NCBI GenBank assembly: GCA_015232015.1
Contig: JADGAM010000008.1
Coordinates: 1-46,820, forward strand
DNA: 46,820 nucleotides
From: Oligoflexia bacterium
GTDB lineage: Bacteria; Bdellovibrionota; Bacteriovoracia; Bacteriovoracales; Bacteriovoracaceae
Reading direction: 5' to 3'
Position 1 is the first letter of the stretch. Every line of letters begins with the position of its first letter. The notes under the pieces are model-generated. The model was not told the origin of the DNA. It ran no database searches and saw nothing but the letters and a program-made list of their open reading frames with translations. This document shows, in pieces, positions 12,925 to 38,414 of this stretch. Position numbers and translations under genes: made by a program.

Positions 12925-12928
12925 AGGA

Positions 12929-15277: not shown

Positions 15278-15293
15278 AATAAACTTAATCTTA

Positions 15294-17027
15294 TTAATCC
15301 ACGTCTGGCCTGTGAGCAAGGGCCATAAATGTTTCTGGATCTTTGCCAGTATCGCTAGTAAAGATGGTCACAAAATACAATACGATGAAAGAGGCGCTCA
15401 CTCCAAAAATGCCGGGACCTCCTGCTACAGGTAGGCCAAAGAACATATATTTTGATCCCTTGATCAGCAGAAGAGCAATGAAGAGTACTGAAACTGCTAG
15501 ACCTGTTAAGGAACTAGCAATCACTGCTTGCCTGGTGGTACGCTTCCACCACAGTGTAGCGATCATTGGAGGAAAGATAGCACTTGCTGCAATTCCAAAG
15601 GCGAGCATCACTAACCAAGCTATATTCTCCTGCTTCAGCATCACCGCCAAAGAAACCGCAATTGCCGACATCACTAGAGTTGTGATTTTGGCAATATTGA
15701 GCTCTTGCTTCTCAGTTGCATTAGGGTTGAGATAGACTTTGTAGAGGTCATGGCTGATAGATGATGCCACAGTGATCATAAGTCCAGCAGAAGTTGACAA
15801 AATGGCAGCTACTGCGCCTGCAGCACCGATGGCCATAAGCCATGGGCCACCAACCAAATGGCTGATCTCCAAAACCGCCATGTTTTTAGCTTGACCAATA
15901 CCTGTCGATCCTTGAGCAATCCATGTAACCAATTTGGTATATATACCAGGGAAGAGTAGGAATCCAAGAATGATGGCACAGATATAAAAAATACCAAGCG
16001 CTACAATACATAGAGTGACACTCTTTTTGGCGGCCCGAGCGCTAGGAACAGTAAAGAACATGATAAGGATGTGAGGAAGACCTGCAGTTCCGAATACCAA
16101 GGCAATAACAGTACTGATCATAGCAAGAGTATTGTCAGTCTTTACACCAATACTCATAGCACTCTCCGCAGTTGGCATCATCTGGCGTGCGGTAGCAATG
16201 GCCTCCATTGCAGGCATGTTGCTTATGGCACTAACTACCTCTTGATTTTTGGCCGCCAAAAGTGGCGGTACCACTTGATGAGCAGTTGCAAGTATCCCTG
16301 AAAAGGAACCTTCTCCAACAATGAAATAAGCTAGAACTGTCAGCACAACCATTGTAATGAAAAGAAAAACTGCCTGGATGGCCTGGTTGGCAAGCGTGGA
16401 TTTCATACCTCCAAAAATAATATAGATGCTCATAAGCAGACCGAGACCAATAGTCACATAAACAAAGTTCCATCCCAGTAGCAATTCAAAGAGTAAACCT
16501 GCTCCAAGCATTTGAGGCACAAGATAAAAGGTGGAGATAACAACAGTACAAAGCATGACAACTAATTTAATTCGGTTATCTGGAAAACGACTATATAATG
16601 CGCCAGCAACGGTATAGGAACCTACGTTTCTTAGCGGACCTGCAATCAATAATAGAACCGCCATATAGCCACCAAAAAAACCAATGGAAAGCCAAATGGA
16701 ATCGATGCCGAAGACACCGATGTCACCAGGACAGCCGAGGAAACTGGCAGCTGATAGATAGCTACCAACCATGGCAATGCCCACTTGTACCCATGGAACA
16801 TCATTTCCTGCCACATAAAAATCGCTAGTGGTACTGGTACTTCTACTGGTCCACCAAGTGATAACAATACTCGCTATCACAAAAAATAGGATAAAACCGA
16901 CCACGATGGAGGTATCTAGTTTTGAAGCGGCGACAGAAGATGTTTGCGCCCGTGTAAGTGCCGGGGTCATGATCATGGTCATGGTTATGGTGGCAAGGAT
17001 GAATGTGATTAATCTCTTTATACTCAT
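15294..17027 (-). CDS. sodium:solute symporter, ActP-like (VC_2705 type)
   Basis: 577 residues. ATG 17027 has GGAGGG four to five bases upstream and overlaps the TGA of the DUF4212 gene in an ATGA. A cleavable-looking hydrophobic N-terminus (residues 8-28) is followed by the 13-helix pattern of the SSS family. SDFYVAGNDVPW, GSYLSAASFLGCPGDIG and GLPHILIMFFTVP are characteristic of the ActP-like acetate/short-chain carboxylate branch that pairs with DUF4212. It imports its substrate with Na+ at the inner membrane. Substrate identity (acetate, pyruvate, lactate or another) cannot be read from sequence. It is followed by the sensor/DUF294 gene. Confidence 0.9.
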   Translation of the reverse strand: MSIKRLITFILATITMTMIMTPALTRAQTSSVAASKLDTSIVVGFILFFVIASIVITWWTSRSTSTTSDFYVAGNDVPWVQVGIAMVGSYLSAASFLGCPGDIGVFGIDSIWLSIGFFGGYMAVLLLIAGPLRNVGSYTVAGALYSRFPDNRIKLVVMLCTVVISTFYLVPQMLGAGLLFELLLGWNFVYVTIGLGLLMSIYIIFGGMKSTLANQAIQAVFLFITMVVLTVLAYFIVGEGSFSGILATAHQVVPPLLAAKNQEVVSAISNMPAMEAIATARQMMPTAESAMSIGVKTDNTLAMISTVIALVFGTAGLPHILIMFFTVPSARAAKKSVTLCIVALGIFYICAIILGFLLFPGIYTKLVTWIAQGSTGIGQAKNMAVLEISHLVGGPWLMAIGAAGAVAAILSTSAGLMITVASSISHDLYKVYLNPNATEKQELNIAKITTLVMSAIAVSLAVMLKQENIAWLVMLAFGIAASAIFPPMIATLWWKRTTRQAVIASSLTGLAVSVLFIALLLIKGSKYMFFGLPVAGGPGIFGVSASFIVLYFVTIFTSDTGKDPETFMALAHRPDVD

Positions 17028-17260
17028 TTTGCCCTCCAAAACCAAACGATAATGATAATCCACGAAATTGGAAAGATAAGCATTGAAAGCAACAAACCGA
17101 GAGGCATGCCCAATGTTGACAGAGAAGCTATTTCCCTAAAGGACGGCGTTTGAATAACGGCCGCACCCATGTAAAAAATGAAAAAAATGGCAAAGAGACC
17201 AAAATTAAAAATTATCTTACTTCGATAAGCTGTGAGCGGTGGTGGAACATTGTTAACCAT
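17024..17260 (-). CDS. DUF4212 small subunit of the sodium:solute symporter
   Basis: 78 residues with two transmembrane helices (about 18-37 and 51-75), separated by a short loop. ATG 17260 has AAAGGA seven bases upstream. Length, the two-helix plan, the FNFGLFAIFF...GAAVIQTPSF pattern and the 4-base overlap with an ActP-type gene identify it as DUF4212, which is regularly encoded with this symporter branch and is thought to be its accessory subunit. It is the first gene of the operon that runs to 12193. Confidence 0.88.
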   Translation of the reverse strand: MVNNVPPPLTAYRSKIIFNFGLFAIFFIFYMGAAVIQTPSFREIASLSTLGMPLGLLLSMLIFPISWIIIIVWFWRAK

Positions 17261-17564: not shown

Positions 17565-19376
17565 ATGAAAAAAACATTTAATATAACTTTCAAAGTCCCT
17601 CATCTAACTCTCTCTCTCTTCTTATTCTTATTTCTAATCCTTTTTTCAAGCACTCAACTCTCTTCATGTGAAACTTGTAGTGATAGCACGGTTGTTGGTA
17701 CCATTACAGACTCTTCGGCAACTCCACTTCCAGTTGCCGATCTTCAAGTAGCTCCTTGCCATCAATTGGATCAATCGGTGTTAACAGATGCTAAAGGTGA
17801 TTTCAAATTAAAATTTCAAACAAATAAAAATGGTAAAAATCTACTTTGCATCACAGGTTCTAAAGGAACTGGTAAGATACTAATTAAGACAACAGAGACA
17901 GAACCAGCATCCTCTCTCTCCTCCTCCTCCTCTCCTTCTAACCCTTCTAGTCCTTCCCATCCTTCTAAAGAAATCGTTATTAAGGCCAATTACCCAGTTA
18001 AAACTACAATAAAGATGCTTTATTTCAATGATGTTCATGGTGCTATCGATAACTTCCCAAAGGTAGCAGCACAAATTAATAAAATCAGAAAAGAAAATGA
18101 AAATACTTTTGTATTCAATAGTGGTGATAACTTCAGTGGTAATCCAATTGTTGATCAATACGAAGATAAAGGCAAACCAATCTTTGATCTTTTAAATGCC
18201 ATTTCTCTAACCACTATGGCCTTAGGTAATCACGACTTTGATTTTGGTCAAGAGATACTTCTTAAACGTGTTACTGAATCAAAATTTCCAATTATAAGTG
18301 CTAACGTAAAAGTTGTTAATAGCGAACTTGCCAAAATCTCCTTTCCATCTCATCAAATAATTTCTACATCTAATGATTTAAAAATTGCTATCACTTCAGC
18401 AATTGAAATCAGCAATAATGGTGCCCCATCCACGTTGCTTAAAAATACTGCTGGACTTAAGTTTACTAATCCTCTTGAAGAATTAAAAGCTCTAGATACA
18501 CTTAAAGAAACTAGCGGAGCAAATCTTTTACTAGGACTAACTCACATGGGATCGGAAGATGATTATAAATTGGCCGCTGAAACAAAAAATTATGACATCA
18601 TAATTGGTGGTCACTCTCATACTTTAATCAAAAAAGAAGTTATCATAAATAACACTTTAATTGCTCAGGCCGGAGATTATTTAAAAAATCTAGGTGTAAT
18701 TACTGTGGTATTTGAAAATGAATCTATTGTTAGTAAAAAGAACGAATTAATTGAAGTAAAAAAATTAACAGAAGAAGATCCTACAATTAAGGCAATGGTA
18801 AATACTTTTAATAATAACCCAACATTAAATCAAATAATCGGTATCGCAGAAGATGTTATTTCAGGCAAAGATGAACTTGGTGCTTTAATAACCGATTCTA
18901 TGCTTAGTGTTCATGGTGCAGATATTGCTTTTGAAAATAATGGTGGAATTCGTATGTCAAAATTAAATCGAGGTAATATCATCTTAAAAAATGCATATGA
19001 ATTATTGCCCTTTGGAAACGAAATTGTACTTTTAAAAATGACTACTAAAGAAATTAGAGCGCTAATTAGTTATTCATTCAATAAGAGAAAAAATATTGAC
19101 CTACAAGTTGCAGGAATAAAATATATTGTTAAAACCAAAAATTCTGAAATTGATAGCATTAGCTTACTTTCTTATAACAATGAACCTATTAATGAAGATA
19201 AAATCTATACTGTAGCAGTTAACGATTACATCGCCAGCAGCTATATGTTTGAACATAGTGATCCTGGTGTATCTACTACTTCTGCAGATAATGATACCTT
19301 AATTAAATTCATTAAATCACAGGCCAAATTAAATTATAAGGGAATAAAGCGCGCTTTAACTGAGAAAGTTCAGTAA
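17565..19376 (+). CDS. exported 5'-nucleotidase / UshA-type lipoprotein
   Basis: 603 residues. The signal peptide ends in a lipobox-like LSSC with Cys35, so it is probably a lipoprotein. Residues 40-110 resemble a carboxypeptidase regulatory-like beta domain (VVGTITD...VLTDAKGDFKL), and 113-135 are a Ser/Pro linker. The metallophosphatase domain starts near 148, with NDVHG (Asp156, His158), GDNFSG (Asp188), GNHDFDFG (222-229), THMG (His327) and GGHSH (348-352). The C-terminal 5'-nucleotidase domain has ENNGGIR and the ELLPFGN stretch. Such enzymes hydrolyse extracellular nucleotides so nucleosides can be taken up. The added N-terminal beta domain is unusual compared with UshA. AAAGGA lies about ten bases before the ATG. 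Confidence 0.9.
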   Translation: MKKTFNITFKVPHLTLSLFLFLFLILFSSTQLSSCETCSDSTVVGTITDSSATPLPVADLQVAPCHQLDQSVLTDAKGDFKLKFQTNKNGKNLLCITGSKGTGKILIKTTETEPASSLSSSSSPSNPSSPSHPSKEIVIKANYPVKTTIKMLYFNDVHGAIDNFPKVAAQINKIRKENENTFVFNSGDNFSGNPIVDQYEDKGKPIFDLLNAISLTTMALGNHDFDFGQEILLKRVTESKFPIISANVKVVNSELAKISFPSHQIISTSNDLKIAITSAIEISNNGAPSTLLKNTAGLKFTNPLEELKALDTLKETSGANLLLGLTHMGSEDDYKLAAETKNYDIIIGGHSHTLIKKEVIINNTLIAQAGDYLKNLGVITVVFENESIVSKKNELIEVKKLTEEDPTIKAMVNTFNNNPTLNQIIGIAEDVISGKDELGALITDSMLSVHGADIAFENNGGIRMSKLNRGNIILKNAYELLPFGNEIVLLKMTTKEIRALISYSFNKRKNIDLQVAGIKYIVKTKNSEIDSISLLSYNNEPINEDKIYTVAVNDYIASSYMFEHSDPGVSTTSADNDTLIKFIKSQAKLNYKGIKRALTEKVQ

Positions 19377-19745
19377 GTCTGGGCATACCTTACAAAAGAG
19401 GCCACTTGTTTACTTTGCTTTTTCAAAAATTTATTGATGTTCATCAGTTAATCCTTAAAATCGAATTCTTTAATCTAATACTATAAACTTAAATATATTA
19501 AATTTTGGATTTCTCAGAGGATATCGCAGGCCGTTTTATAATTTTGATGAAAAATACGGGCCTATCTGTTTTTTAAGAAGATAGAATTTTCACACCCATT
19601 ATTTATTTAGCCTTATTTATTAAAAACTCTTTGAATCTAGATAGGAATATGCTGAAACTTTAGAAAAGTGTTTAGACGTTTATAGAAAAAAAAGACAATA
19701 GTATTAATGGAAAATAATCAAATCAACAGGCCAAAAGGCCATATT
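19377..19745. other. intergenic region between convergent genes
   Basis: No gene is seen. A weak hairpin (AGGCCG near 19528 with CGGGCCT ending 19563) followed by a second small stem (CTATCT with AGATAG, about 19562-19584) might terminate transcription, but neither has a convincing T run. Confidence 0.4.
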
Positions 19746-20528
19746 TCAACGCACAGATGAAACCGTGCACGCACACAGCGCAGAGCCTTCTGAGGCAGGG
19801 GCAAAGCCGAGAGTGACGTAGCCTTTTGAGCCGTCGAGGAGAAAGGCACATTTTTTATCCTCACAAAACGATGACGACCAAAAAGAGCGATGTCCCCCCC
19901 TACCGCCTTGGTCACTATTTGGTGCCTCACTCAAATGGCTTTCTTTAGGAGGATTCCAATTTTTATCATACCCTTGAAACCCCATATCTCTTCCTAATTT
20001 ACCTAAAGAAAGAGTATTTGTTGAAGATGAAAAAAAGCCATATCCATCTAACAGACCAAATTTACATCCTAGCTCAGGATATTTTTTATTAAACCCATCA
20101 CAATATTCTGCTGCCTCTTTTTGATTCACGCCATCTTTGATGTCCGAAAATAGCAAATAAGTATCTTCCCCTTTTGCATTTTTCCATTTCCAAGCAAAAG
20201 GCCCCTCGCTGCCTATCCTCATCTTTGGAAGTTCTATTCCCGTAACGGTTTTCATCACTTCCCCTGTCTCGTAAAAAGGAAGAGTGTATTCAGCGATTAA
20301 TCTTGCTATGTCAGTGGGTAGATTATCACAGTGACTTCCCACTCTGCTCCCTGCGGCCTGACGAATGGCCTTTGTCAATTCTTGTGATTCCGCTGACTGC
20401 GCAGCTTTTCCTTTTTTTACGTCTTGAATTTTCTGTTGCTTTTGATCTTCACTTGCTACTACTGATGTTAAGTAGATCGATAACATCATACCAATTGTTC
20501 CCAATAAAAAAACATAACACTTTTTCAT
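19746..20528 (-). CDS. exported protein with F-box-like motif and DUF1566/lectin-like C-terminal domain
   Basis: 260 residues. ATG 20528 has AGGAGGT five bases upstream, one of the best ribosome sites here. Residues 1-24 form a signal peptide. After a charged linker (25-70), NLPTDIARLIAEYTLP resembles the first helix of F-box-type motifs. The C-terminal half has the layout of DUF1566/FISUMP and C-type-lectin-like domains: AAEYCDGFNKKYPELGCKFG, then RSFWSSS, then a closing CAC near the end. Its last 150 bases are visibly richer in G+C than neighbouring genes, which could hint at transfer. The family call is tentative. It is monocistronic, with a long upstream gap holding a CRP-type site. Confidence 0.6.
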   Translation of the reverse strand: MKKCYVFLLGTIGMMLSIYLTSVVASEDQKQQKIQDVKKGKAAQSAESQELTKAIRQAAGSRVGSHCDNLPTDIARLIAEYTLPFYETGEVMKTVTGIELPKMRIGSEGPFAWKWKNAKGEDTYLLFSDIKDGVNQKEAAEYCDGFNKKYPELGCKFGLLDGYGFFSSSTNTLSLGKLGRDMGFQGYDKNWNPPKESHLSEAPNSDQGGRGGHRSFWSSSFCEDKKCAFLLDGSKGYVTLGFAPASEGSALCACTVSSVR

Positions 20529-20956
20529 ATAACCTCCTAAGAAGACGCCCACTTGCGCTAATTATTATTATTCTTATTTTGCCATACGACTGTAATCGAG
20601 AGAGGTGTAACACAAAATGCTTGGTACTCAATCCTGGTCGCTGCTTTAATTACTATTCTACCAAGGTCGAGTTTTACGACTTATAAATTTTTTATAAAAT
20701 TTTTATAAAGTTTGTGTTGTTGGTTAGTTAACTCATGTAAAATAAAATAAATTTAATAAACCAAGTGATGATTGCAGGAGGCAGAGTTTTTCTTATTTAT
20801 GTTTATTTATAAATAGTTTTATTTAAGTGTGATTGTGATCACATTTACTATTTGCTGCCTTTCACTTCCTCAAAAAAGACTGACAGCTGAAGGCCATGAT
20901 CAAAATATATAAAGTGTATTGTATTAGGAGGTGAGTACTTACTTTTTAGGAATTTC
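20529..20956. other. long AT-rich leader/intergenic region upstream of the 19746-20528 gene
   Basis: No coding frame with a ribosome site is seen. Repeated A/T runs (TATAAA-TTTTTTATAAAA at about 20680-20720) and the perfect CRP-type palindrome at 20828-20843 are the only structured elements. The palindrome lies about 300 bases upstream of the gene start, so the transcript may have a long leader or an unannotated small RNA. Confidence 0.5.
20828..20843. promoter_or_regulatory. perfect CRP-family binding site consensus
   Basis: TGTGATTGTGATCACA is an exact match to the TGTGA-N6-TCACA palindrome bound by CRP/cAMP receptor proteins and close relatives. It lies in the gap between the alpha-mannosidase 3' end and the exported gene at 20528, and both genes are on the minus strand. 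Function depends on the host having such a regulator. Confidence 0.5.
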
Positions 20957-23900
20957 TTAAAAACTAAAAACATCGATCTCTGTATAGAAAGTTCCTTCAC
21001 CAATATCTGCAGAAACCCACATTAGAAAGCGAAATGTACCTAAGCTTTCCGTTGTTGTTCCTTCTTTATTACCAACAACAGAAGATAGGTGAACACCTCC
21101 TTCTGCTAAATGCTGATCATTCACTCGTGCAATCAGTTGCCAATCTTGCTTTGAGAGATGATTGAAATTGGGATTATCTTTATTAGAACCTAACAGAAGA
21201 AAATATTGAGGGGCCCGATTATAGCGATGCCGTGAATAGGTATTTATCTTCGCTAATGGAACGCTCTTTTTTAAATCTACTACAAATTTACCGATAGTGC
21301 CGTCATACCATACACAGCGATCTGGATCATCGTCATTTTGTGCATAATCACCATCATGAAGTCGTGGTAAATTTTTTCCTTGCGCTCCAGAGCGAGAATG
21401 AGGAGAGGCACCTACATAAAAAAGATCTGTATTATTTCCGCTATGACTATCAATAAAATCACTTTTGCTAGGAGCTCCTCCCACTAATTGATCAAAGGAT
21501 TGTGCTCGCTCAGTAGATGCAGTTCCTAAGGGAACATCATTATAGAATTTTTCAAAATCATCACTGCTCGCCTCTTCAGTTGGTTGGCGAATCACTCTTC
21601 CATCGAAATTATCATAGAGATCTACTGCTGCTTTGGTTGATTGGTTCAAATCATTAGCAAGCGACATGGCCATGATTTTTATTTTAGAATTTTGTGGCAA
21701 AGTTATAGTTTTGGCCCCAGCAGGAAGATTGATTGCATATTGAAAGAGATAACTAAAAATATAAGAATCATTTTTTCCTGTTTTAAGATGTCGGTGAGTT
21801 GCAAACCAGGCCACTTTATCTCTTTTGATAAATCCTGGAATCAGAGATTTAAGGTTCTTTTGGGAAAAACCAAAAATTCTTTTATCAAAGTTACCGATAC
21901 TACCCCACCATTTTTGGATGTTTAATTGCTTAATATTACCATCGATCTCAAAATTTCCTACTGTATCTTCAGATGCGGTCGCAAGTAGATAGAGTACATT
22001 GTGATTATTGTGATTATTGTGATTATTGTGATTATTGTGATTATTGTAATTACCTGTCTCGATTTGAGGAAGAGCAATCTTTTGGCCAGCTGCTGAGATG
22101 GCATTGGGTTTACCTAGAAAAACATCTGCTAATACAAAATGAACACCATCAGAAGTAATTCTTTTGGGATAGAGTTCTGCAGGGTAGGACGCACCAGAAT
22201 TGTTAAAATCAGCATTGCTCATGTTATTATCAAAAGAGACAACATCACTGTTAAAGTAAAGAGAGAGATCTAGCTGATAAGAGCTTTTGGGTGGGTAATA
22301 AGGAGTGCTTCTTTGCAATTTAAAGGCAAAACTTTTAGGTGAATATTTACTCATATCCACTACTAACTTTCCGCTCGATATTTCCGCATTTTGTAGGTAT
22401 CGTTCTTGTCCATCAACTTCTACTACTTTTTCAATGGGCGAAGCAAATTCAACCTCAAATTGCTGAGTATTTTTGCCAGCAAGTTCTTGCAAACGAAGAA
22501 TATAGGTATCCTTTTGATCTTCGGCCCTTTTGAGAGCGGCAATGGCCACTTGTGAAGTTCCGATTTTAATGAATGAGAAAACCTGGCCATTAGCTCCCAG
22601 ATGTTTTGTTGTAGTAAAAGCGAGTAAAGGATTGTTGAGACGTGCCGCTTGCCAACTAGAATCACCTTTTCGCCAATCACCAGCATGTCCATAAATAGCA
22701 TATAAAAATTGGTGGTGACCAAAGTCTTGGGAAGATTCATGATGATATCCACCTTTATCAGTGTTTGGCGTATAAAGAAGAGTTAATCTAAGTTTATTAT
22801 CACTAGGTTTATCTGAGCCAAATTTACCATCCTCTAAGATTGAAACTCCGTAGCTCTGATTGCTATCGGTTAAATCAAACCATTGATGAGAGGGAACTTC
22901 ATACTTTTTAGGATCATTGTTTTTTCGTTCGATAGTTCCTACTCCTAGATTATAGGTTGCATTTGGATTTTGAACTGTAAGAGGAAATGCCGCTTTAAGC
23001 GATGAATTTTTAGTTAGCCAATCAATCGATGTGCTAAATTCAACTTGCTTACCACCTTTAGTAAGTCTAATTTCTTGTATAAACTTTGAATTAAGTTTCT
23101 CTCGAGTAATTTCTAAAGCAACTCTAACTGGGCCATTTTCAATGATACGAATATTTGCCTGGCCATCAACATAGGCATATGGCGGTTTTTTACGATCATC
23201 CCAATCCATATTCCATGCTGGCCATTCACGTGGTTGTTCATATTGAAATTCAAGGCGAGCGGGCGCTTGCAAGAGCTCGCGCTGATTTGCTTTATCAAAA
23301 ATGGAGGCCACATCACCGTTTCCATTTATTGTTACAACAAGATTTTGGTTTTCAATTGTACGCGCCGAGATCTTTATCTCATTGTCTGCGATCTCATTGT
23401 CTGCGCTAAAGGGGGTAGCAGATGCACGAACATCATAAATTTTCCAACCCACAGACGGAATTTTTCCCAGAAAAATAATTTCGAGAGAATTATTTTCACG
23501 CTTAATAATTTGCGATGGTACTTCTTCGCCATTTGGATCAAAAACCCGCACATATTGAGGAAGCGATTCAGAGTTTGAATTTGAGTTTGAATTTGAATTG
23601 GAGTTATAAATTAATTTTGCTGATACTACGTCTTCTCTAGGAATTGATAGTGGGTTATAAACAACTAATGGTCTTCCTTTTATCCCAGTATGTGTGTCCA
23701 TGGTTGCCGCCACCGCACCAACACTGTCCTCTAAACTTGCTGAAAACAAGTTCATTGCTAAAACTTCATCATTGTAAGAAAAATCGTAGGCGGCAGGTAT
23801 TGATGTTCCAGGAAGAATGTCATGCATTTGCGACAAAAGCACTCGTTCCCAGCCCGAATTGATTTTCTTTATTGGATAAGGAGCACTACCCATCCAATCG

Positions 23901-24937
23901 GCCACAACCGAAGCTTTTTCAGAAGCATCCGCCAGTAACTCATTTTTTCTATTCCATCTTTTCATGTAGGCCTGAGAGGATAAAGAACCGGTCGAATGTT
24001 CAGTTAAAAGTAGATCCCCTTTGTACTTAGGCAATCTATTTTTTTGTTCTGTAGTAATATCACGAAAAATTTGATCAGATGATGCCGTAACAACTCTAAT
24101 TGGCCAATTGGTTTCAAGACTCCTCATAACATTATTAACATCTTCTGACCGGGGAGCGCCTCCTCTATCACCAACACCATAATAGTGAAAATCAGCAAAG
24201 ACTCCGTAGAGTTTTCCATTTTCCATAACTCGATTAACCCATGTACGATCTTGTTGTAATGGAATTTTTACTTTCCCAACATAGTCACCTGGGTTAAGGG
24301 CCGCTATTACAGATGCGCCATCAGGCCCCTCCCAGGTACCCAAATTAAAAGGAATGCCCACTGCTGATCCCCACGTTAATTTTTGGGTTGAAAACCCTTT
24401 GATTCCAGCATGGGCCCAGATGGAAGGTAGCGAGGCCGGGAAACCAAAACAGTCTGGCAGCATATAATCAATGCTTTCTTTGCCAAATTCCTGACGAAAA
24501 AAATTATTTCCATATAGTATCTGTCTGAATAGAGACTCAGAGGAAGGCACATTAACATCACCCTCATCAACCGAAGAGCCCGAAACAAACCAGCGTCCTG
24601 CTTTCACATATTCTTTAACTTTTTGATACTCGTGTGGATAGTACTCTTTTAACATTTTATAGCGAGCGGAACCGCTGAAATTAAAAGTATAGTCAGGAAA
24701 ATTATCAAAATTACTGAAATTTTGCTCGAGCGTATCTTTTAAATATTGTTCTATTGTATCCTTATAAGTCCATTGCCATTGGGTATCTAGATGAGCATAT
24801 CCCACGACATATAGAACTGGATCAGCAGCAGACAAAAGTTGGGCCTGAGCTGACCTGGTTTGTATAAATGTTATTGTTAGACTTATAAAGAGAGCAAATG
24901 AAAGTGAAAGTGAAAAAATACCTTGTGTTTTGTTCAT
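20957..24937 (-). CDS. exported GH38 alpha-mannosidase with C-terminal carbohydrate-binding-like module
   Basis: 1326 residues from ATG 24937 (GGAAGG five bases upstream); a longer frame to 25024 lacks a signal-peptide start. A signal peptide ends near SAQA. The GH38 N-terminal domain carries AHLDTQWQW (His49, Asp51 as zinc ligands) and PDCFGFPASLP with the expected nucleophile Asp162. Middle domains cover about 330-900, as in mannosidase II-type enzymes. Two linkers are encoded by microsatellites: Asn-Ser repeats near 455 and Asn-Asn-His repeats near 980. The last 150 residues (LHDGDYAQND...TFYTEIDVF) look like a discoidin-type sugar-binding jelly roll. It should remove alpha-linked mannose outside the cytoplasm. 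GH38 enzymes are best known from N-glycan processing and degradation. Confidence 0.9.
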   Translation of the reverse strand: MNKTQGIFSLSLSFALFISLTITFIQTRSAQAQLLSAADPVLYVVGYAHLDTQWQWTYKDTIEQYLKDTLEQNFSNFDNFPDYTFNFSGSARYKMLKEYYPHEYQKVKEYVKAGRWFVSGSSVDEGDVNVPSSESLFRQILYGNNFFRQEFGKESIDYMLPDCFGFPASLPSIWAHAGIKGFSTQKLTWGSAVGIPFNLGTWEGPDGASVIAALNPGDYVGKVKIPLQQDRTWVNRVMENGKLYGVFADFHYYGVGDRGGAPRSEDVNNVMRSLETNWPIRVVTASSDQIFRDITTEQKNRLPKYKGDLLLTEHSTGSLSSQAYMKRWNRKNELLADASEKASVVADWMGSAPYPIKKINSGWERVLLSQMHDILPGTSIPAAYDFSYNDEVLAMNLFSASLEDSVGAVAATMDTHTGIKGRPLVVYNPLSIPREDVVSAKLIYNSNSNSNSNSNSESLPQYVRVFDPNGEEVPSQIIKRENNSLEIIFLGKIPSVGWKIYDVRASATPFSADNEIADNEIKISARTIENQNLVVTINGNGDVASIFDKANQRELLQAPARLEFQYEQPREWPAWNMDWDDRKKPPYAYVDGQANIRIIENGPVRVALEITREKLNSKFIQEIRLTKGGKQVEFSTSIDWLTKNSSLKAAFPLTVQNPNATYNLGVGTIERKNNDPKKYEVPSHQWFDLTDSNQSYGVSILEDGKFGSDKPSDNKLRLTLLYTPNTDKGGYHHESSQDFGHHQFLYAIYGHAGDWRKGDSSWQAARLNNPLLAFTTTKHLGANGQVFSFIKIGTSQVAIAALKRAEDQKDTYILRLQELAGKNTQQFEVEFASPIEKVVEVDGQERYLQNAEISSGKLVVDMSKYSPKSFAFKLQRSTPYYPPKSSYQLDLSLYFNSDVVSFDNNMSNADFNNSGASYPAELYPKRITSDGVHFVLADVFLGKPNAISAAGQKIALPQIETGNYNNHNNHNNHNNHNNHNVLYLLATASEDTVGNFEIDGNIKQLNIQKWWGSIGNFDKRIFGFSQKNLKSLIPGFIKRDKVAWFATHRHLKTGKNDSYIFSYLFQYAINLPAGAKTITLPQNSKIKIMAMSLANDLNQSTKAAVDLYDNFDGRVIRQPTEEASSDDFEKFYNDVPLGTASTERAQSFDQLVGGAPSKSDFIDSHSGNNTDLFYVGASPHSRSGAQGKNLPRLHDGDYAQNDDDPDRCVWYDGTIGKFVVDLKKSVPLAKINTYSRHRYNRAPQYFLLLGSNKDNPNFNHLSKQDWQLIARVNDQHLAEGGVHLSSVVGNKEGTTTESLGTFRFLMWVSADIGEGTFYTEIDVFSF
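22003..22047 (-). repeat. 9-bp coding microsatellite, five copies
   Basis: Five perfect tandem copies of a 9-base unit (GATTATTGT on the plus strand) encode the Asn-Asn-His linker of the alpha-mannosidase. Confidence 0.95.
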
Positions 24938-25032
24938 TATAACCTTCCATTGATGATTAGGCCTGGAAAAAAATAACTTAAACATTTTTATGTAATATTT
25001 CAACATATTTATGTATTTCGGCAATTTGGCAA

Positions 25033-25078
25033 TTCGATGATCCGATGATTCGATAATTTAGATGATTCGATGACTCGG
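25033..25078. repeat. imperfect GATGATTCGAT tandem repeats
   Basis: Four or five diverged copies of an approximately 10-11 base CGATGATTC unit lie between the mannosidase start and the transglutaminase-like gene end. No function is apparent. Confidence 0.6.
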
Positions 25079-25099
25079 TATCTTGATGTATGGCAGATG

Positions 25100-26773
25100 T
25101 TAGAACATTTCACTCTCAAAATAATTTTCTTCTCCTCGAGAAGCAGCAGTCAATGCATATACAATTCTTCCTAAAGGTAATTTGAACTTTACTGCTTTTT
25201 TAGCATATTCGGCCCAATTTGCAGGTAATGCTTCAGTAATTGGATTCCATTTATTCGAAATCATTTTATCTAATGTCATATAAGGTTTGGCCCCAGGAGC
25301 AGGAGTCCACAAGAAGTCTGGATGAGAATCAGCATACCATTCTCCCCCTAGAATTTTACCAGTTTCGTCTAATTCTAAATCATAATAGTATTTAGCAGTA
25401 ACCAAAGAATCCAAAGTTGGATTATCATCTAATTGACTTGGATCAGTCTCCGCTAGATAGGTAATAGTCATCTTTACTCCTACTGCGTATTTTGCATCTT
25501 TTGAGCGGAAATTGGTAAATTTATCTTTAGTAAAATCTTTTAATAAAATAATAGCGCTTTTAGCATCAGAAAAATTTTCAGAAGTTTGTGGATTAAAATA
25601 GGTGTATTCATACGATAGCATCGGTTGATTCCAAACTTCATAATCATATATAGAATCGATGATAAAGCTCTTTTTTGCTAATCCTAATTGATTTACCACT
25701 GTCATATGCCATGTTCCCGGATTAGTATCAAAACATTCTGGATTCAAAATACGTCCACTAGTTGCATCTCTTTTTACTTCTTTATCCTTATCTTTAATTG
25801 AACATCTTCCTCCGGCCAAATATTGAGGGTAATTAGAATTGGCCCAAAAAAGAGAAGATAGTGCCTTTATGTCTGATGGATAAAAAGTGATTTTGTATTT
25901 GTTATTTAAAGAATTCACAATAACCGAATGAAGTGGCCGAGGAGACATGTAACTAGCTGCTGCCCAGCCATGACATATACCCATCCAGGTTTCAACTTTA
26001 AATTTTTCATTGTAATATTTTTCACCTTCTTTCCACATTGCTTTAGAGAGAGAGAACTCTTCATCACCAATTAAAAGATCATATTTTTCAGCAGGTGATA
26101 ACATATTAATTGTTCCCTTTTCTATATAATTTTGTGCTGGATTTTTTAAAACATATTGGTAATATTTTTTCCAACTACTGTCACGATTGAGTATCCGGTC
26201 CCATAAGTCGGTCAAGGCATCTTCAACAATTTCTGCATTAGGGTCAGCATAGCGAAAACCTAACCCTCCTTTATAAATAGGCCAATAATCATCTGACCAT
26301 GGTTGTGTCTCTAATGTGGCCTTGGTAAGACCTGCCTTATCAATATCAAAAATGTTTTTTATCATTGTCGTGCGATTGTAAACGATATTATCGGCCAAAT
26401 CATTTTCAAGATAAGCAGATCTAATATTAAAAAATTGTGAAACGTCTTTATTTTTATTATTTTGATTAAATTTTTTAAGAAGTCGATTGCGAAATGCATA
26501 TCTTATTCTCGATAATTTGCTTTTTTGTTCTTTCGTTAAAATTAATTTGGGAACAATCTCAGCATTAATATTTCTTTTAACTATTCTTTCACTCATCACT
26601 TTACTAGGGTTTTTAAAAAATCGTGTTAAGAATGTTTTGGTTTCTAGATCAAAGTTATCAGATGCCATAATTTTGCTAGCTGGATTCACCATCCCCAAAA
26701 ATAATAATAACAACAATGTTAATTTAAATTTAGTTAATTTAAATTTATTTGCATGGAATATTTTTTTACTCAT
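25100..26773 (-). CDS. secreted transglutaminase-elicitor-like protein A
   Basis: 557 residues. ATG 26773 has AAGGAG six bases upstream and overlaps the end of the subtilisin gene by 8 bases. An N-terminal signal peptide (a duplicated Lys-Phe-Lys-Leu-Thr, then a Leu run) ends near 37. The core matches the transglutaminase-elicitor family known from Phytophthora (GP42): GICHGWAAAS with putative catalytic Cys267, a SDIKAL motif at 300-305, GTWHM with His356, and VWNQP around 380. The C-terminal ELD..GKILGGEW..SHPDFLW segment is shared with protein B. Transglutaminases crosslink Gln to Lys in proteins; activity here is inferred from the conserved Cys/His. Confidence 0.78.
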   Translation of the reverse strand: MSKKIFHANKFKLTKFKLTLLLLLFLGMVNPASKIMASDNFDLETKTFLTRFFKNPSKVMSERIVKRNINAEIVPKLILTKEQKSKLSRIRYAFRNRLLKKFNQNNKNKDVSQFFNIRSAYLENDLADNIVYNRTTMIKNIFDIDKAGLTKATLETQPWSDDYWPIYKGGLGFRYADPNAEIVEDALTDLWDRILNRDSSWKKYYQYVLKNPAQNYIEKGTINMLSPAEKYDLLIGDEEFSLSKAMWKEGEKYYNEKFKVETWMGICHGWAAASYMSPRPLHSVIVNSLNNKYKITFYPSDIKALSSLFWANSNYPQYLAGGRCSIKDKDKEVKRDATSGRILNPECFDTNPGTWHMTVVNQLGLAKKSFIIDSIYDYEVWNQPMLSYEYTYFNPQTSENFSDAKSAIILLKDFTKDKFTNFRSKDAKYAVGVKMTITYLAETDPSQLDDNPTLDSLVTAKYYYDLELDETGKILGGEWYADSHPDFLWTPAPGAKPYMTLDKMISNKWNPITEALPANWAEYAKKAVKFKLPLGRIVYALTAASRGEENYFESEMF

Positions 26774-28286
26774 GATTACTCCTTATAAAATTGTCGAATT
26801 CACTAGGTAAAGGAATTACATACTCCAACTCTTTATATATTCGTGAAGTATTCGAAGGAGTTATTGGTCTCATTTGTGTATCTGCAGAAGAAAATGATTT
26901 TATCTCTTTTTTTGCTTTATCAATCGCTTGTGAAAGAGAATATCCATTTGAATATTTTGCCGCTAAAAGCGCCCTACTTTTATTTACAACTCCTGAACTA
27001 GCAATTTTCCCTTTTAAAGTTGCTTTATAATCAACTGTTTTTATAATAATTTCTTTCACGTTTGCAGGGGAAAGACGGGAGTTAATATTTAAAATTTCTC
27101 CAGCAATATTTGAAACGTATGGTGCTGCCTGGCTTGTTCCACTTAATGTTGCCGATTTGTTTCCAGGAATTACAGAGACAATTCCTACTCCAGGAGCTGC
27201 TACATCTACAGTTTTGTTTCCATAGTTAGAAAAACTTGCCAATTCACCAGAGTTTCTTGTAGCGGGGACAGGGCCTCTCCAAGCTCCTACTGATATAGTG
27301 TTTTCAAGTCTAATATTCGCAGGGGCCATATAATATTCATCGTTGTTGCTTCCATCATTACCGGCCGCAAATACAAATAAAGTATTGTTGGCAGATCCAT
27401 AGAGAGTTGTGGAATTTGCTAGTACTTGATAAAGGAAGTGGTTTCTAACAGAAAGTAATTCTTTTTTAGTAGGAAAACGTTTAAGAACCATTCGAAAAAA
27501 AGTAGTAACTATTTTTTCTCCTTGGACTATGCCAGTACCAAAAGAAGCATTTGCAACTTGAACACCAGTAGTGTCGATATATTTTATAATTTTTTGTACT
27601 ACTGCCAATTCTCGAATAACTAATCTTGCTAAAACGAATTTTACAAGATTTTCATTTGTTAAACCTTCCGCAATTGCATCCTTAATGTCTTTTTGAATAA
27701 CAATAGGAATAGGTAGATCTTCGATTCTAACATTTATATTATAATTATCTACTGGAGGTTTTGGAGTAGAAACAATTTTTATTATTTGTACTCTATTTTC
27801 ATTACTTTCATTAACTATAATACCAGAAACGTGCGTTCCATGGATATAAGTTCCTAGAAAAGTAATTTCTTTCATAAATTTTTTATCAGCTAATTTCTTT
27901 TTTATCCAAAAAATCTCATTAGGAGTGGCGGTTGCATAAGCAATTTTTGCCTCAATTTCTAAAAAGAGTTTATGTTCACTCGTAAAATCCACTGGATAAT
28001 TTGGGACCAGGAGTATATTGTTATCATCAACAAAATTCCAACCGAAAATATCATCAATGTGCCCATTATGATCATCATCTACAAAATTATTTGGTATCTC
28101 CAATTTGTTAATCCACAGGTGGTTTCTAATAATATTTGTATTTACATCTACTCCTGAATCAATAACCGAAATTGTCGATCCATATGCTTTTGTTAAAAAC
28201 AATGAATTATTTGAAAATAGTGCTAATGTTAATGTTAACAACACAAATCTTAGAATAAAAAAAAATTTTTGTTTTTGAATCCTCAT
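26766..28286 (-). CDS. secreted subtilisin-like serine protease (S8)
   Basis: 506 residues with an AGAGGT ribosome site before ATG 28286. A signal peptide (to about residue 36) is followed immediately by VIDSGVD; no I9-type propeptide is visible between them. The catalytic residues are all present: Asp43, His151 in GTHVSG, the oxyanion Asn309 in AAGND and Ser384 in GTSQAAPYV. The Asp-His spacing is long, with DDDHNGHIDD (69-78) between them giving a calcium-like loop. The C-terminal 90 residues are an extension without known domain. Its stop overlaps the transglutaminase-like gene, so the two are probably translated together. Confidence 0.92.
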   Translation of the reverse strand: MRIQKQKFFFILRFVLLTLTLALFSNNSLFLTKAYGSTISVIDSGVDVNTNIIRNHLWINKLEIPNNFVDDDHNGHIDDIFGWNFVDDNNILLVPNYPVDFTSEHKLFLEIEAKIAYATATPNEIFWIKKKLADKKFMKEITFLGTYIHGTHVSGIIVNESNENRVQIIKIVSTPKPPVDNYNINVRIEDLPIPIVIQKDIKDAIAEGLTNENLVKFVLARLVIRELAVVQKIIKYIDTTGVQVANASFGTGIVQGEKIVTTFFRMVLKRFPTKKELLSVRNHFLYQVLANSTTLYGSANNTLFVFAAGNDGSNNDEYYMAPANIRLENTISVGAWRGPVPATRNSGELASFSNYGNKTVDVAAPGVGIVSVIPGNKSATLSGTSQAAPYVSNIAGEILNINSRLSPANVKEIIIKTVDYKATLKGKIASSGVVNKSRALLAAKYSNGYSLSQAIDKAKKEIKSFSSADTQMRPITPSNTSRIYKELEYVIPLPSEFDNFIRSNHE

Positions 28287-28649
28287 TATTGTACCTCTTT
28301 TGTACTTTTTTTGTACCTCTTTTGTTCCTTACTAATATTTTAATTACAACAAATAACTTACTTTGAAATATATTTTTTCCCTAAATTAGGTAACGCCTTA
28401 CTGGTATTGTTTAAAAATAATAATTAGTCGCTGGCGCGAAAGCGACAGTGACTAATTAGTAAATCTATAATTTTCTAAATCTATAATTTGGTAAACACTC
28501 ACTATCGAAAAATTTTTTTTGACTTTTAAAAATGCTATTCGTATTTTGTAGTGTTTGTTATTTTTGATAATTTTTTTTGATAATATTTGCTTCTACTTAA
28601 TTTCAATCATTTTCTATTATTAAAAACAATATTTTCAAAGGAGAATCAG
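28287..28649. other. divergent intergenic region between the protease and second transglutaminase-like gene
   Basis: No gene is seen. It contains palindromic element copy 1 (28421-28460). Just before the protease there is a duplicated AAAGAGGTAC string (minus strand, about 28292-28322), of which the copy nearer the start is the ribosome site. Promoters for both directions must lie here, but I cannot fix them. Confidence 0.6.
28421..28460. repeat. palindromic intergenic element, copy 1
   Basis: An imperfect 40-base palindrome with outer arms TAATTAGTC / GACTAATTA and an inner CGAAAGCG core. By hand alignment, its reverse complement matches copy 2 (44574-44612) at 31 of 37 bases, and its forward strand matches copy 3 (45708-45748) at 32 of 42. 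Confidence 0.8.
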
Positions 28650-29852
28650 ATGAAATTGCTGGCCACAAAAATGCATTTTGTTTCTTTTTCAATTACGTTA
28701 CTATTCATGCTATGGTTACTACCATTAACAAAACTATATGCAGACACAGTTAATACAATTAATAGCGATAGAGAAGATGTAGACATTTCTACAGACCTCA
28801 TTGTGGATAAATCAGCATGGGATTCGGCCAATAATCCCTCTAACATAAATGAAGAAACTTCTGATCAAGCATTTGAATATAACTTTAATAGATTGCCAAT
28901 AAATGGTTCACTCGGTTATCAACCTTGGAGTGATAATTATTGGCCAAATTCTAAGGGAGGGTTGACCTATAGATGGCACTCACAAAGAGGTTTTGATCGT
29001 TTTCGATCTGCTCCTTCAAACAAACGAAAAGCTATGAGAATGTCTATGCGTAGAATAGCTGCATTATCACCTGCCGAAAAATATGACATCTTTACTGGGC
29101 GTTTTGATTATCCCCTTACAAGAGCAGAGAGAGCTAGAACTGCTGGAAGTGATGAAAAATGGGAAGGAATCTGTCATGGGCTTGCACCTGCTTCTTTCCT
29201 CTTTAAAGAACCAAAACCCGTTACACTAAGAAGTGTTGATGGAATTTTAATTCCTTTTGGTTCCTCAGATATAAAAGGATTATTATCGCTTCTTCAAGGT
29301 GAATATAATAAGAATGGTAAGAACTATTATGCAGGCAACCGTTGTAATGAAAAATTTAATGTACTTCGAGATTTTAATAGAAGCAATCCATGCTTAGATG
29401 TTAATGCTGGTGCTTTTCATGTTATCTTAAGCAATCGATTAGGAATTTTACATAGAGGTTTGGTAATGGATAAGGCAACAAATATAGAAATATGGAATCA
29501 TGCCCTTCTAGCTTATACAACTAAAGTAATTAGTTCAAGAAGACCATCTCGTGGGGCGGCCCGTAGCACAGTTAAAGAATTAGTAGTCTCAACAATTTTG
29601 ACATATACACTAGGAAGTGCTCAAAGTTTTTATCCAAATGACCCTGCAAGAAGAAAAGCTTTACGCCAAAACAAAGAATATAGATACATATTAGAATTAG
29701 ACAGTGATAGAAATATTGTTGGAGGTAAATGGATTTCCTCAGATTATCCAGATTTTTTATGGATACAAGATCGTGCAACTTTTACAAGCACATTTGAAGC
29801 TCTGGAAGAAATCTACAGACGTTCTATTGAATATAATGGAGATATATATTAA
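28650..29852 (+). CDS. secreted transglutaminase-elicitor-like protein B
   Basis: 400 residues. I start it at ATG 28650 (AAAGGAGA five bases upstream) and not at the earlier in-frame codon 28587. Residues 1-31 are a signal peptide. It shares the motif series of protein A at 25100-26773: QPWSD.YWP..KGGL, LSPAEKYD, GICHG.A.AS with putative catalytic Cys175, SDIKGL (206-211), the Cys232 block, GAFHV with His257, and a C-terminal LELD..NIVGGKW..SDYPDFLW. It is shorter than A and diverged, so the pair is an old duplication. It faces away from A across the protease gene. Confidence 0.78.
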   Translation: MKLLATKMHFVSFSITLLFMLWLLPLTKLYADTVNTINSDREDVDISTDLIVDKSAWDSANNPSNINEETSDQAFEYNFNRLPINGSLGYQPWSDNYWPNSKGGLTYRWHSQRGFDRFRSAPSNKRKAMRMSMRRIAALSPAEKYDIFTGRFDYPLTRAERARTAGSDEKWEGICHGLAPASFLFKEPKPVTLRSVDGILIPFGSSDIKGLLSLLQGEYNKNGKNYYAGNRCNEKFNVLRDFNRSNPCLDVNAGAFHVILSNRLGILHRGLVMDKATNIEIWNHALLAYTTKVISSRRPSRGAARSTVKELVVSTILTYTLGSAQSFYPNDPARRKALRQNKEYRYILELDSDRNIVGGKWISSDYPDFLWIQDRATFTSTFEALEEIYRRSIEYNGDIY

Positions 29853-29922
29853 CACTATTATCTAATATCTAATACCTATTATCTATTTATCTATTATCTA
29901 ATACCTAATATCTAATACCTAA
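29853..29922. repeat. TATCTAATA-type tandem repeat
   Basis: About seven degenerate copies of a 9-10 base (T)ATCTAATAC unit fill the gap between the transglutaminase-like and cysteine peptidase genes. It probably only spaces two genes of one transcript. Confidence 0.75.
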
Positions 29923-29940
29923 ACCTCGTTGGGAGGAAAA

Positions 29941-31758
29941 ATGAAAAAGCATGTGTGTTTTATTTCTATCTCATTCTCTTCCTTATATTTTATCATAACA
30001 TATTTTATCACAACATATTTTATCACAACTTTCATAACAACATTTGCTCAAAACGCTTATTGTAGCAGCGAACTCCATGATCTAATTTCCCATAAAAAAA
30101 CATATCCCATTATCTATAAAGGAAAAGAAATACCATGGAAAATACAAATCAATAAAGATAACTCGGAAGTTAATTTTGTTTATAAATTTCCAGATCACGG
30201 TAAAAAAATCATTCAGGAAATACCATGTAGCTTAAAGCTTAGAGGTAAGCAGATACAATGTATCTCGAAAAATATTCCTCAAAAGATAATTGGGCATATT
30301 AACAATCGTTATGCCACTATTTGTGATGAAAATTACAAAGACGTCTGTGAACTTTATTTTTCTGAATTATTTCCTTCCAAACGAACAAGCGCATTTCCTA
30401 ATAATGCTACCCCTATTAAAACCATCACTCTATCTTTATCAGGCATTTTCAATCTCAACAAAGAACACATTCAAGGTTCCCCCGGTTCCAGTAATTTGCT
30501 TCCCACTTCTCATACTAATCTTTTTCCATTTATTTTATCCTCTCCTTTACAAGAGGAAGCTGGAAGTTGTCTTTATATGGCATCAACTGGAGCAGCGGAA
30601 ATCATACTAAATAAAAAACTGAATCAAGCTAATAGTAAAATGGATGGGGATACTGATTTATCTGAAAGGTTTCTCATGAATATTAGTACTGAAACGCCGG
30701 ACTTCGCAGTTAATACTTTTGAAAAATTTAATGTTGTTGAAGGAGGAATGTTAAATAGGGATTACCGTTTTACCAAAGGATATTATTCTCGCGATGAAAA
30801 CGGAAATATACTAAGAGATGTTCATTCCTCCCTTTATGGAACTTCTTACAATTGGATCGAAGAGGTGCCTAGCGATTACAAACTCAAATTAGTAAAAATC
30901 CCTTATTTAAAGAGAAAGGATATCTTTGTTAATGGTTATGGGCCTTGGGACATTGGAGTTATGAATGATGATGTAGTCAAAAACATTAAACATTATCTTG
31001 CAAAATATAATTCCCCTATTTTGTTTATCTACAATCATTATAACTACTGGCATGCAGTTTTAATTGTAGGTTATGACGATAGTGTTTATGTAGGAAACTG
31101 TCCATTTGTTTATAGTTCCAGAAAGTATTTTTTAGAGCAAAATGAACGAAGCTTAGTAGAAAAAATTGATAGTGCTTTAAAAAGAAAGGACTGTAAAGAA
31201 TATGGTGTTTTCTATATTCGCGATTCGTTGTTACACGCTAGTAACGACACTTATGTTTATGATAGAAACGCTGGAAGCAGAGGCATCGGTCATTATGCCG
31301 AAAAAATCATTAAACAATCATATGATTGGGCCAGAGTGCTTGGAAATACTGCCTATATGATATATACAGATGCTCCCAACAACCCAATAATCACACCACC
31401 AATTATTCCTCCTGCTCCTTCACGCATTGTAATTAAAGCAAGCGATTTCCAGGTTAAATTTAAAATTTCTTTATCATCACGTTCATCACGTTTATCGCGT
31501 TTTAATAAAAAACGTCTCTTCACTTTATATCTTAGTGAAATCAAACCTGGAGTTTTAAAATATGTTAAAAGTGTTAAATATGATGTACACCCAAGCTATA
31601 GATCAGCTCCCACTTGTTTTAGCAGCAACAAAAATTCACAATTTTCTTGTGGAAATTATATAATCTCTAAAAATGGTTTTAAAACTAGAGGAGCAAAAAT
31701 AACTCTAACAGATGATCAGGTTCTTACTCTCGATGAAGGAACCCAAATTTCCTGGTAA
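29941..31758 (+). CDS. secreted papain-like cysteine peptidase
   Basis: 605 residues from ATG 29941, with GGGAGG four bases upstream; a TTG at 29929 overlaps that site. The signal peptide core is a Phe-Ile-Thr-Thr repeat made by a 15-bp tandem duplication. The family pattern is Q204EEAGSC210 (oxyanion Gln and nucleophile Cys), His371 in YWHAVLIVGYDD and Asn386 in GNCPF. These match papain (C1-type) peptidases, although the usual GSCW is GSCL. The first 200 residues may be a propeptide or separate domain, and a beta-rich tail follows a Pro-rich linker near residue 490. It lies downstream of transglutaminase-like B and probably shares its transcript. It converges tightly on the next gene. Confidence 0.75.
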   Translation: MKKHVCFISISFSSLYFIITYFITTYFITTFITTFAQNAYCSSELHDLISHKKTYPIIYKGKEIPWKIQINKDNSEVNFVYKFPDHGKKIIQEIPCSLKLRGKQIQCISKNIPQKIIGHINNRYATICDENYKDVCELYFSELFPSKRTSAFPNNATPIKTITLSLSGIFNLNKEHIQGSPGSSNLLPTSHTNLFPFILSSPLQEEAGSCLYMASTGAAEIILNKKLNQANSKMDGDTDLSERFLMNISTETPDFAVNTFEKFNVVEGGMLNRDYRFTKGYYSRDENGNILRDVHSSLYGTSYNWIEEVPSDYKLKLVKIPYLKRKDIFVNGYGPWDIGVMNDDVVKNIKHYLAKYNSPILFIYNHYNYWHAVLIVGYDDSVYVGNCPFVYSSRKYFLEQNERSLVEKIDSALKRKDCKEYGVFYIRDSLLHASNDTYVYDRNAGSRGIGHYAEKIIKQSYDWARVLGNTAYMIYTDAPNNPIITPPIIPPAPSRIVIKASDFQVKFKISLSSRSSRLSRFNKKRLFTLYLSEIKPGVLKYVKSVKYDVHPSYRSAPTCFSSNKNSQFSCGNYIISKNGFKTRGAKITLTDDQVLTLDEGTQISW

Positions 31759-31763
31759 GTTTT

Positions 31764-32930
31764 TTAAATTTCACATTCAAAACTTTCCGGAAGCTCGGCC
31801 ATTTTATTTACTACAAATGCCCTACGTAGAGAGGTGAGAATAATACTTTTTAGAACAATCTTTCGATTTTCCTCATAATCATATGGTTTAAATTCCGACG
31901 TAATATTTATCTCTTTTTGTTCATTATCTGATTGATATATTGACATTATATCAATTCCCATTACTGGCGCAAAACATGACATATCCAAATATTTCAAAAC
32001 ATCTCCAAAATTAATATACCTTGTTTTCTGCCCTTTCTTTCCTCTAACTTTAAAATAAACTCCTAAGTTATCTATGTCATAGATTATTTGCCATTGAGTA
32101 AAAGAAAGCGGATGGGCCACTTTTTTTAGAATCTGAAAACCATAATCGACACCCTCTATAGTGTTTAGAGGATCATTCATATGAAATTGTGATGCCATTA
32201 AACTTGCTTGTAAAAAATGAGCGATTGATTTATCTTTTTTATGAATAAGAGGGCGTACTACCGGAAAATTTCTTTCTCCCCCAAAACCACGATAGCTGGA
32301 AAAATTGGTGATCGAATCTTCGTAAGTAGAGTTAGTTAATGTTTTTAATTTTAATTTTTTACCAGTGGTTATCACCCAATGACCATTAAGATATTCAAAA
32401 GCAGCGCAGTTACGAGTGCGATCACACGCTAGATAGTGAACTTTACCATAGTAAGGAACAATATTGAGATTTTTCGTTTCATCGATCATTTCTTTTACGG
32501 ATGAAAAATTATCTAACTGGTATTGTACCCATTGTAGTTCATTTATAGTTTTTCCAGATTCAACAAATGAAGGGAATTTACTATCTTTTAATATTGAGAC
32601 TTCTACTACTAATCCCTTCTCGTTTATTCCACCATTAGGAAATTCTCGCCCATATTGATTGAAAGTCAAACTTCCATAACGAGACTTCCAAAAAGTAGTT
32701 GATCCATTACTTTTCATACCTTTCAAGACAATTGGACTTTTCTTAACCCCACGTTTATTCAGATAGATCATTCCTTGTCCCATATGCCAATCGTAATTCT
32801 TTCCCAAAAAAGCACGATCATGTCCATCACTATTATCCCACATAAAAAATGTTGTACAGGGATAGGCGGCCAGTATAGTTAACAATTGAATGATAATAAT
32901 TGTTGAACTAAAATTTAAGATCCTAATCAT
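31764..32930 (-). CDS. exported Ntn amidase, choloylglycine hydrolase / penicillin acylase-like
   Basis: 388 residues, AGGAG seven bases before ATG 32930. A signal peptide ends at AAYP, leaving Cys25 as the new N-terminal residue, as required of N-terminal nucleophile hydrolases. Family motifs are CTTFFMW, GKNYDWHMG (Asn45, Asp47) and PNGGINEKGLVVE (98-110). Members cleave linear amides such as bile-salt conjugates, penicillin V or acyl-homoserine lactones. The actual substrate cannot be told. Here its removal of the peptide before Cys25 would depend on signal peptidase. It ends only 5 bases from the convergent peptidase gene. Confidence 0.85.
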   Translation of the reverse strand: MIRILNFSSTIIIIQLLTILAAYPCTTFFMWDNSDGHDRAFLGKNYDWHMGQGMIYLNKRGVKKSPIVLKGMKSNGSTTFWKSRYGSLTFNQYGREFPNGGINEKGLVVEVSILKDSKFPSFVESGKTINELQWVQYQLDNFSSVKEMIDETKNLNIVPYYGKVHYLACDRTRNCAAFEYLNGHWVITTGKKLKLKTLTNSTYEDSITNFSSYRGFGGERNFPVVRPLIHKKDKSIAHFLQASLMASQFHMNDPLNTIEGVDYGFQILKKVAHPLSFTQWQIIYDIDNLGVYFKVRGKKGQKTRYINFGDVLKYLDMSCFAPVMGIDIMSIYQSDNEQKEINITSEFKPYDYEENRKIVLKSIILTSLRRAFVVNKMAELPESFECEI

Positions 32931-36342: not shown

Positions 36343-36357
36343 AGTTTCCCCCTATTG

Positions 36358-38190: not shown

Positions 38191-38372
38191 AGCAAACCCT
38201 ACCTGTATAAAAATTTATCATGAAATTTATCATAATATTCTATCGGCATTTTATAATCCTTTTATTAGAAAACAAAAAAATTGTGACATAAAAATCGAGC
38301 TTAGTATTAACTATTAAATAATGTAACTTTAGAGGATTAGAAAAATTTGAATAGACGCGGACAATTTAAACT

Positions 38373-38392: not shown

Positions 38393-38414
38393 AATTTAAA
38401 TTGATAAATCGTAG

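Follow-up and report, generated by a model that had tools for sequence, protein, structure and literature searches.

Two GP42-family transglutaminase genes in a probably loosely conserved, export-rich gene neighbourhood of an Oligoflexia genome

A run of genes for exported enzymes with predicted roles towards proteins, glycans, nucleotides and amides raises the question of whether these genes represent a functional island for the degradation or remodelling of prey or host material, or a neighbourhood of a looser kind. The run is located in the window, i.e. the whole stretch of 46,820 nucleotides analysed here, which corresponds to bases 1-46820 of contig C402 (52,230 bases) of a 4.9-Mb metagenome-assembled genome (MAG) that is 85% complete. 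Its sister species from the same genus, G001 (Oligoflexia bacterium isolate nKLK_bin12), is counted among the magnetotactic genomes in a review (PMC9160268), and magnetotactic Bdellovibrionota are described as potentially or probably predatory in a 2026 paper (PMC13200544). Judging by the nKLK_bin12 record and the literature, the window genome probably belongs to the same phylum; a magnetochrome match was obtained in it at sub-threshold level only. As the window genome and G001 are both MAGs, calls of absence and of distance carry an assembly risk.

All seven enzyme-encoding ORFs proposed in the initial annotation were found in place, and the families of all but the cysteine protease were confirmed by Pfam and PDB searches. 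The proposed run of seven holds for the enzymes, while an eighth gene for an exported protein (19746-20552) was found inside the block. The features of the block are as follows:

17565..19376, + strand: exported 5'-nucleotidase/UshA-type phosphoesterase (Metallophos and 5_nucleotid_C, Pfam 2.8e-26 and 6.4e-12; heuristic signal peptide)
19746..20552, - strand: exported protein (predicted signal peptide)
20957..25024, - strand: exported GH38 alpha-mannosidase (Pfam GH38N/mid/C/C2; PDB Ams1, E 1e-71)
25100..26773, - strand: TG1, GP42-family transglutaminase, PF16683 (Pfam 1.4e-40; 3tw5 8e-25; AF2 model)
26766..28286, - strand: S8 subtilase (Pfam 6.2e-31), upstream of TG1 with an 8 nt overlap
28425..28454, no strand: palindrome between the divergent S8 and TG2 genes (fold z -6.3)
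28650..29852, + strand: TG2, second GP42-family transglutaminase, PF16683, with CH motif (Pfam 7.8e-29; 3tw5 2e-16)
29941..31758, + strand: exported cysteine protease with a papain fold, family unnamed (invariant Q208, C214 and H375; Foldseek cathepsin K 1.4e-6)
31764..32930, - strand: exported Ntn-type hydrolase of linear amides, similar to choloylglycine hydrolase (Pfam CBAH 1.5e-7; PDB 3hbc 8.5e-15)

The ORFs of TG2 and of the papain-like protein were listed from 28587 and 29929 (29929-31755), respectively; their likely starts are 28650, with an AAAGGAG ribosome-binding site just upstream, and 29941. The exported protein at 19746..20552, which had no match in Pfam or NCBIfam, is represented by at least one more copy in the genome (C409). 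The block had also been described as lacking a nearby transporter, yet an SSS symporter (15294-17063) and an NhaD-type antiporter (10872-12122) are encoded directly upstream, although neither is an obvious carrier for the products. Together with genes for a metallophosphoesterase and a Cache/PAS/CBS/DUF294 protein, these two genes make up a stretch (10872-17063) with a GC content of 0.41-0.44, compared with ~0.31 in the genome, which looks foreign. On the other side of the block, genes for exported proteins are again abundant at positions 34264-46546. This second run, which may represent an envelope operon, encodes protein kinase-like, TPR, FecR and DUF3943 proteins along with unknown ones.

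N-terminal export signals, claimed for all seven enzymes, were recovered for five by a home-made, simple heuristic predictor that has no reference benchmark, and for the other two by eye: the papain-like protein has a hydrophobic N-terminus, and the Ntn protein contains AAYPC, the Cys of which is located where the mature N-terminus is expected. According to this predictor, the exported share was 22 of 100 genes on random contigs of the same genome (20 contigs, three of which read as N), 61 of 138 (44%) around the transglutaminase paralogs and 15 of 29 (52%) in the window. The expected number of runs of eight exported genes per genome ranges from 0.02 to 3.5, depending on the export rate assumed. 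The run is therefore uncommon at a low rate and unremarkable at a high one, i.e. export-rich, not exceptional.

Comparison with related genomes bears on whether the block behaves as a unit. Orthologs lying far apart in relatives, which the initial annotation had named as grounds against its interpretation, are largely what G001 displays: its closest S8 and TG1 relatives are on contig C14, the TG2 relatives on C22, the CBAH relative on C23 and the papain-like relatives on C5, C6, C9, C12 and C41, and GH38 is absent from this genome. In contrast, a 150-kb contig from genus g20 (G020:C92) was shown to carry relatives of TG1, TG2, the papain-like protease and the CBAH protein in the same order as the window, across 55 kb compared with 7.8 kb in the window, with neither S8 nor GH38. 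No tight block that is kept or inserted as a unit was thus observed.

A true functional island, in which the genes for degrading prey or host would be co-regulated and would move horizontally as one block, is considered highly improbable. Eight exported genes in a row (by predictor and by eye), two likely transcription units placed back to back (S8-TG1 and TG2-papain-like) and the four families in the same order on G020:C92 speak for such a block, whereas the dispersal in G001, the uniqueness of GH38 in the phylum sample, a GC content that differs gene by gene and the occurrence of exported-gene runs (of 5-7 genes) on related contigs speak against it; moreover, there was no tRNA, and no integrase family was recognised in the proteins scanned. 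A single transferred island was accordingly rejected as a whole, on account of GH38 uniqueness, G001 dispersal and GC differences, and was retained only for the part that is colinear with G020:C92.

The scatter in G001, the rarity of GH38 and the order shared with g20 point to a loose neighbourhood that is rich in exported proteins and has received lineage-specific additions. Part of it is old, given that the order of four relatives is preserved on a single g20 contig. We regard it as probable that the locus represents such a loosely conserved neighbourhood, rather than a single mobile island, compact in the window, drawn out in g20 and dispersed in G001. The older core would consist of TG1, TG2, the papain-like protease and the Ntn amidase, whose order is kept in a second genus; the S8 subtilase would have joined TG1 later, within the genus of the window, and the GH38 mannosidase would be a later, lineage-specific addition.

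Chance co-location of ordinary envelope and nutrient housekeeping genes in an export-rich zone, with transglutaminase-fold proteins that act on the envelope of the cell itself by cross-linking or shaping it, was weighed as an alternative. Zones rich in exported proteins occur generally in this group, no partner other than S8 recurs in the transglutaminase neighbourhoods, and the kinase, TPR, FecR and DUF3943 proteins of the flanking run at 34264-46546 resemble envelope functions. Against this stand the 16 divergent transglutaminase paralogs of the genome, the absence of PF16683 from many relatives, the sporadic gain of GH38 and the colinearity with G020:C92, which is unlikely to arise by chance alone; this housekeeping reading is therefore judged to be unlikely.

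Assignment of TG1 and TG2 to PF16683, a family known chiefly from plant-pathogenic Phytophthora, is supported by scores of 139.7 and 101 bits, respectively, against a curated cut-off of 25, and both proteins contain the CH active-site motif (WMGICHGW in TG1 and WEGICHGL in TG2), a signature peculiarity of the GP42 active site (PMC10318531). The AlphaFold2 model of TG1 (pLDDT 82.5) retrieved 3tw5, the Phytophthora sojae GP42 structure, as its only confident Foldseek match (4.9e-17), and superposition on 3tw5 aligned 305 residues at an rmsd of 2.4 with a Z-score of 26.6, compared with 5.2 for the next chain. The GP42 fold was obtained by structure modelling for TG1, while TG2 was assigned by sequence. 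Across 20 relatives, W, G, C266-H267, D348, N350 and H355 were invariant in the alignment.

Both proteins thus resemble P. sojae GP42 in family (by Pfam and PDB sequence search), CH motif and predicted secretion, and TG1 additionally in fold and in the Pep-13 core VWNQP. They differ from it in being bacterial, in sharing only ~31% (TG1) and ~26% (TG2) identity with the oomycete protein and in having many paralogs per genome, and the TG1 gene is overlapped by the subtilase gene. TG1 possesses an N-terminal extension of ~100 residues. Pep-13 in the form known from P. sojae (VWNQPVRGFK...), which marks the GP42 elicitor recognised by plants, was found in neither protein, with TG1 containing VWNQPMLSYEY and TG2, in which the core itself is altered (IWNHA), IWNHALLAYTT; among the sequences listed, VWNQPVR occurs only in the proteins encoded on contig C80 of the window genome and contig C42 of G001. 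Two Cys residues, in the contexts R-C and C-x-D-x-N, are conserved in the aligned bacterial sequences and correspond to Phe and Tyr in 3tw5; this pair may form a disulfide.

TG1 and TG2 could instead be peptidases or peptidoglycan amidases with a GP42 fold. The papain-like nature of the fold and the appearance of IdeC/Mac-1 proteases as the next structural matches are consistent with this, and families of one fold often differ in chemistry. However, the Mac-1-type matches are weak (Z ~5, as opposed to 26.6 for GP42), and the CH motif and D348/N350 are arranged as in GP42, which renders this alternative somewhat doubtful. TG1 and TG2 are more probably secreted papain-fold thiol enzymes of the GP42 family, with a predicted transglutaminase-type activity.

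The two genes represent two of the 16 PF16683 loci detected in the window genome (18 matches, two being second pieces of one frame). Among 59 relatives, 30 contained PF16683. A scan of 368 phylum genomes, which scored at most five candidates per genome and thus reports presence, not copy number, detected the family in 208. Further holders in a wider collection were mostly Myxococcota, so that the family is frequent in two phyla known for predators. A search of open-licence papers for PF16683 together with Bdellovibrio returned no paper. At one of the additional loci (contig C235 of the window genome), the reading frame of a PF16683 fragment extends into a histidine kinase/receiver region at the end of the contig; this may be an assembly join.

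The S8 assignment is supported by a Peptidase_S8 score of 108 bits (cut-off 21.8) and by Asp, His and Ser catalytic motifs in the alignment, with deseasin MCP-01 as the best PDB match (8.5e-27). Unlike known subtilases, this protein has no recognised prodomain and contains long insertions between the catalytic blocks, and its gene is paired with that of TG1, an AGGAG sequence being present upstream of the TG1 start. Three S8-TG1 neighbour pairs were found in the genus, each in a different orientation: as overlapping genes in the window, convergently with one LysR-type gene between them on contig C210 of the same genome, and divergently on contig C14 of G001. For both proteins, the C210 and G001 copies are closest to each other (S8, 70% identity; TG1, 69%), with the window copy outside (58-60% and 65-66%, respectively). 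This concordance may be explained by one ancestral S8-TG1 adjacency kept through duplication and inversion, and the pairing suggests a functional link.

The subtilase can be viewed as a candidate processing enzyme of TG1, which represents a directly testable hypothesis. A model of prodomain removal is weakened by the G001 TG1, as this protein lacks most of the N-terminal extension and is nevertheless encoded beside S8. The TG1 relatives on contig C288 of the window genome and in G020 have no adjoining S8, and S8, in one clade only, was the sole recurrent partner family found around the transglutaminase paralogs. Proximity of S8 and transglutaminase genes in other genomes of the family was discarded as a signal, since the pairs are several kilobases apart, at about chance level as judged from coordinates.

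Among the remaining enzymes, the mannosidase exceeded the Pfam cut-offs in its N, middle and C domains (four GH38 domains). It shares all GH38 domains with Ams1-type alpha-mannosidases, while differing from these in being exported and bacterial and in having ~450 extra C-terminal residues. GH38 was detected in one of 368 phylum genomes, that of the window, and is therefore considered a lineage-specific addition; its gene has a GC content of 0.382, compared with ~0.31 on random contigs of the same genome. A eukaryotic origin, raised by Ams1 as the top PDB match, was unsupported, since closer proteins are encoded on bacterial plasmids, the nearest relative seen being an Acidisarcina plasmid protein (44%). 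The 5'-nucleotidase, which has a CarboxypepD_reg-like stretch at its N-terminus, had only a weak match (22%) among the contigs compared.

The proposed cysteine protease had no significant sequence match in Pfam, NCBIfam or PDB. Its papain-like label was nonetheless borne out, because the core of its AlphaFold model matches cathepsins (cathepsin K, TMt 0.66) and the Q-C-H residues are invariant in the alignment; predicted fold and Q-C-H order are thus those of the papain/cathepsin (C1) fold, whereas a sequence family match is absent. The Ntn hydrolase scored 31.8 bits against CBAH (cut-off 20.4), with a Cys directly after AAYP in the translation, in agreement with CBAH/C45 Ntn membership, while its match to the C45 model fell below the cut-off of that model.

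The 30-base palindrome at 28425-28454 (TAGTCGCTGGCGCGAAAGCGACAGTGACTA) has 13 intergenic copies in the genome (at most three mismatches), and related copies are present in G001. A role as operator for the exported enzymes was dropped because copies are also located between convergent genes and beside genes for non-exported proteins; the palindrome looks like a dispersed REP-type element. Scans for promoters and terminators yielded counts equal to those of shuffled sequences.

Transglutaminase activity has been reported for the oomycete enzyme, and the low identity of TG1 and TG2 to it speaks against a firm transfer of this function. TG1 and TG2 would most likely cross-link or deamidate proteins outside the cytoplasm, where the subtilase and the papain-like protease would cut proteins, and the mannosidase, nucleotidase and amidase would handle glycans, nucleotides and amides. 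As a whole, the set may serve scavenging or prey processing, prey use being possible. From the families, the export signals and the phylum, we predict extracytoplasmic protein modification and digestion with scavenging of glycans, nucleotides and amides, possibly on prey. The initial proposal of degradation or remodelling of prey or host material likewise fits the families, the export signals and a phylum of predators.

In a tree with SH-aLRT support only, TG1 grouped with the homologs from C210 and C288 of the window genome and G001 C14, and TG2 with those from C99 and C188 of the window genome and G001 C22. P. sojae GP42 was placed among Myxococcota sequences (Nannocystis, Polyangiaceae and Kofleriaceae) and the C80 and G001 C42 proteins, the latter two being 42-45% identical to it. 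TG1 and TG2 belong to the same family, yet to other clades, composed mostly of Bdellovibrionota sequences. Going by the title of Reiss et al. 2011, to which PMC10318531 and PMC9879208 refer, the GP42 family has been discussed as a link between oomycetes and marine Vibrio. The homolog of a Vibrio owensii plasmid (NZ_CP025798.1), which is annotated as a ricin-type beta-trefoil lectin domain protein, shares 29% identity with P. sojae GP42 and falls on the TG1 side of the tree, and a topology joining it with GP42 was rejected (p-AU 3.5e-5). As a single oomycete sequence, on a long branch, and a single Vibrio sequence are too few, no firm claim on the origin of GP42 is made.

It is conceivable, although quite unlikely as a whole, that predators of the Bdellovibrionota and Myxococcota deploy GP42-type transglutaminases in large numbers against prey, that in this genus an operon-encoded subtilase processes TG1, and that the Phytophthora GP42/Pep-13 gene was derived from this bacterial pool and not from Vibrio. 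If the enzymes act on prey, they would represent a little-studied class of predation enzymes, and a bacterial origin of the oomycete gene would need re-examination. The C80 and G001 C42 proteins, the closest GP42 relatives in the genus, have a layout of their own: in a chain of 1201 residues, PKD-like repeats are combined with a GP42-like domain, which contains VWNQPVRAY or VWNQPVRGY, respectively, and with a repetitive C-terminal region.
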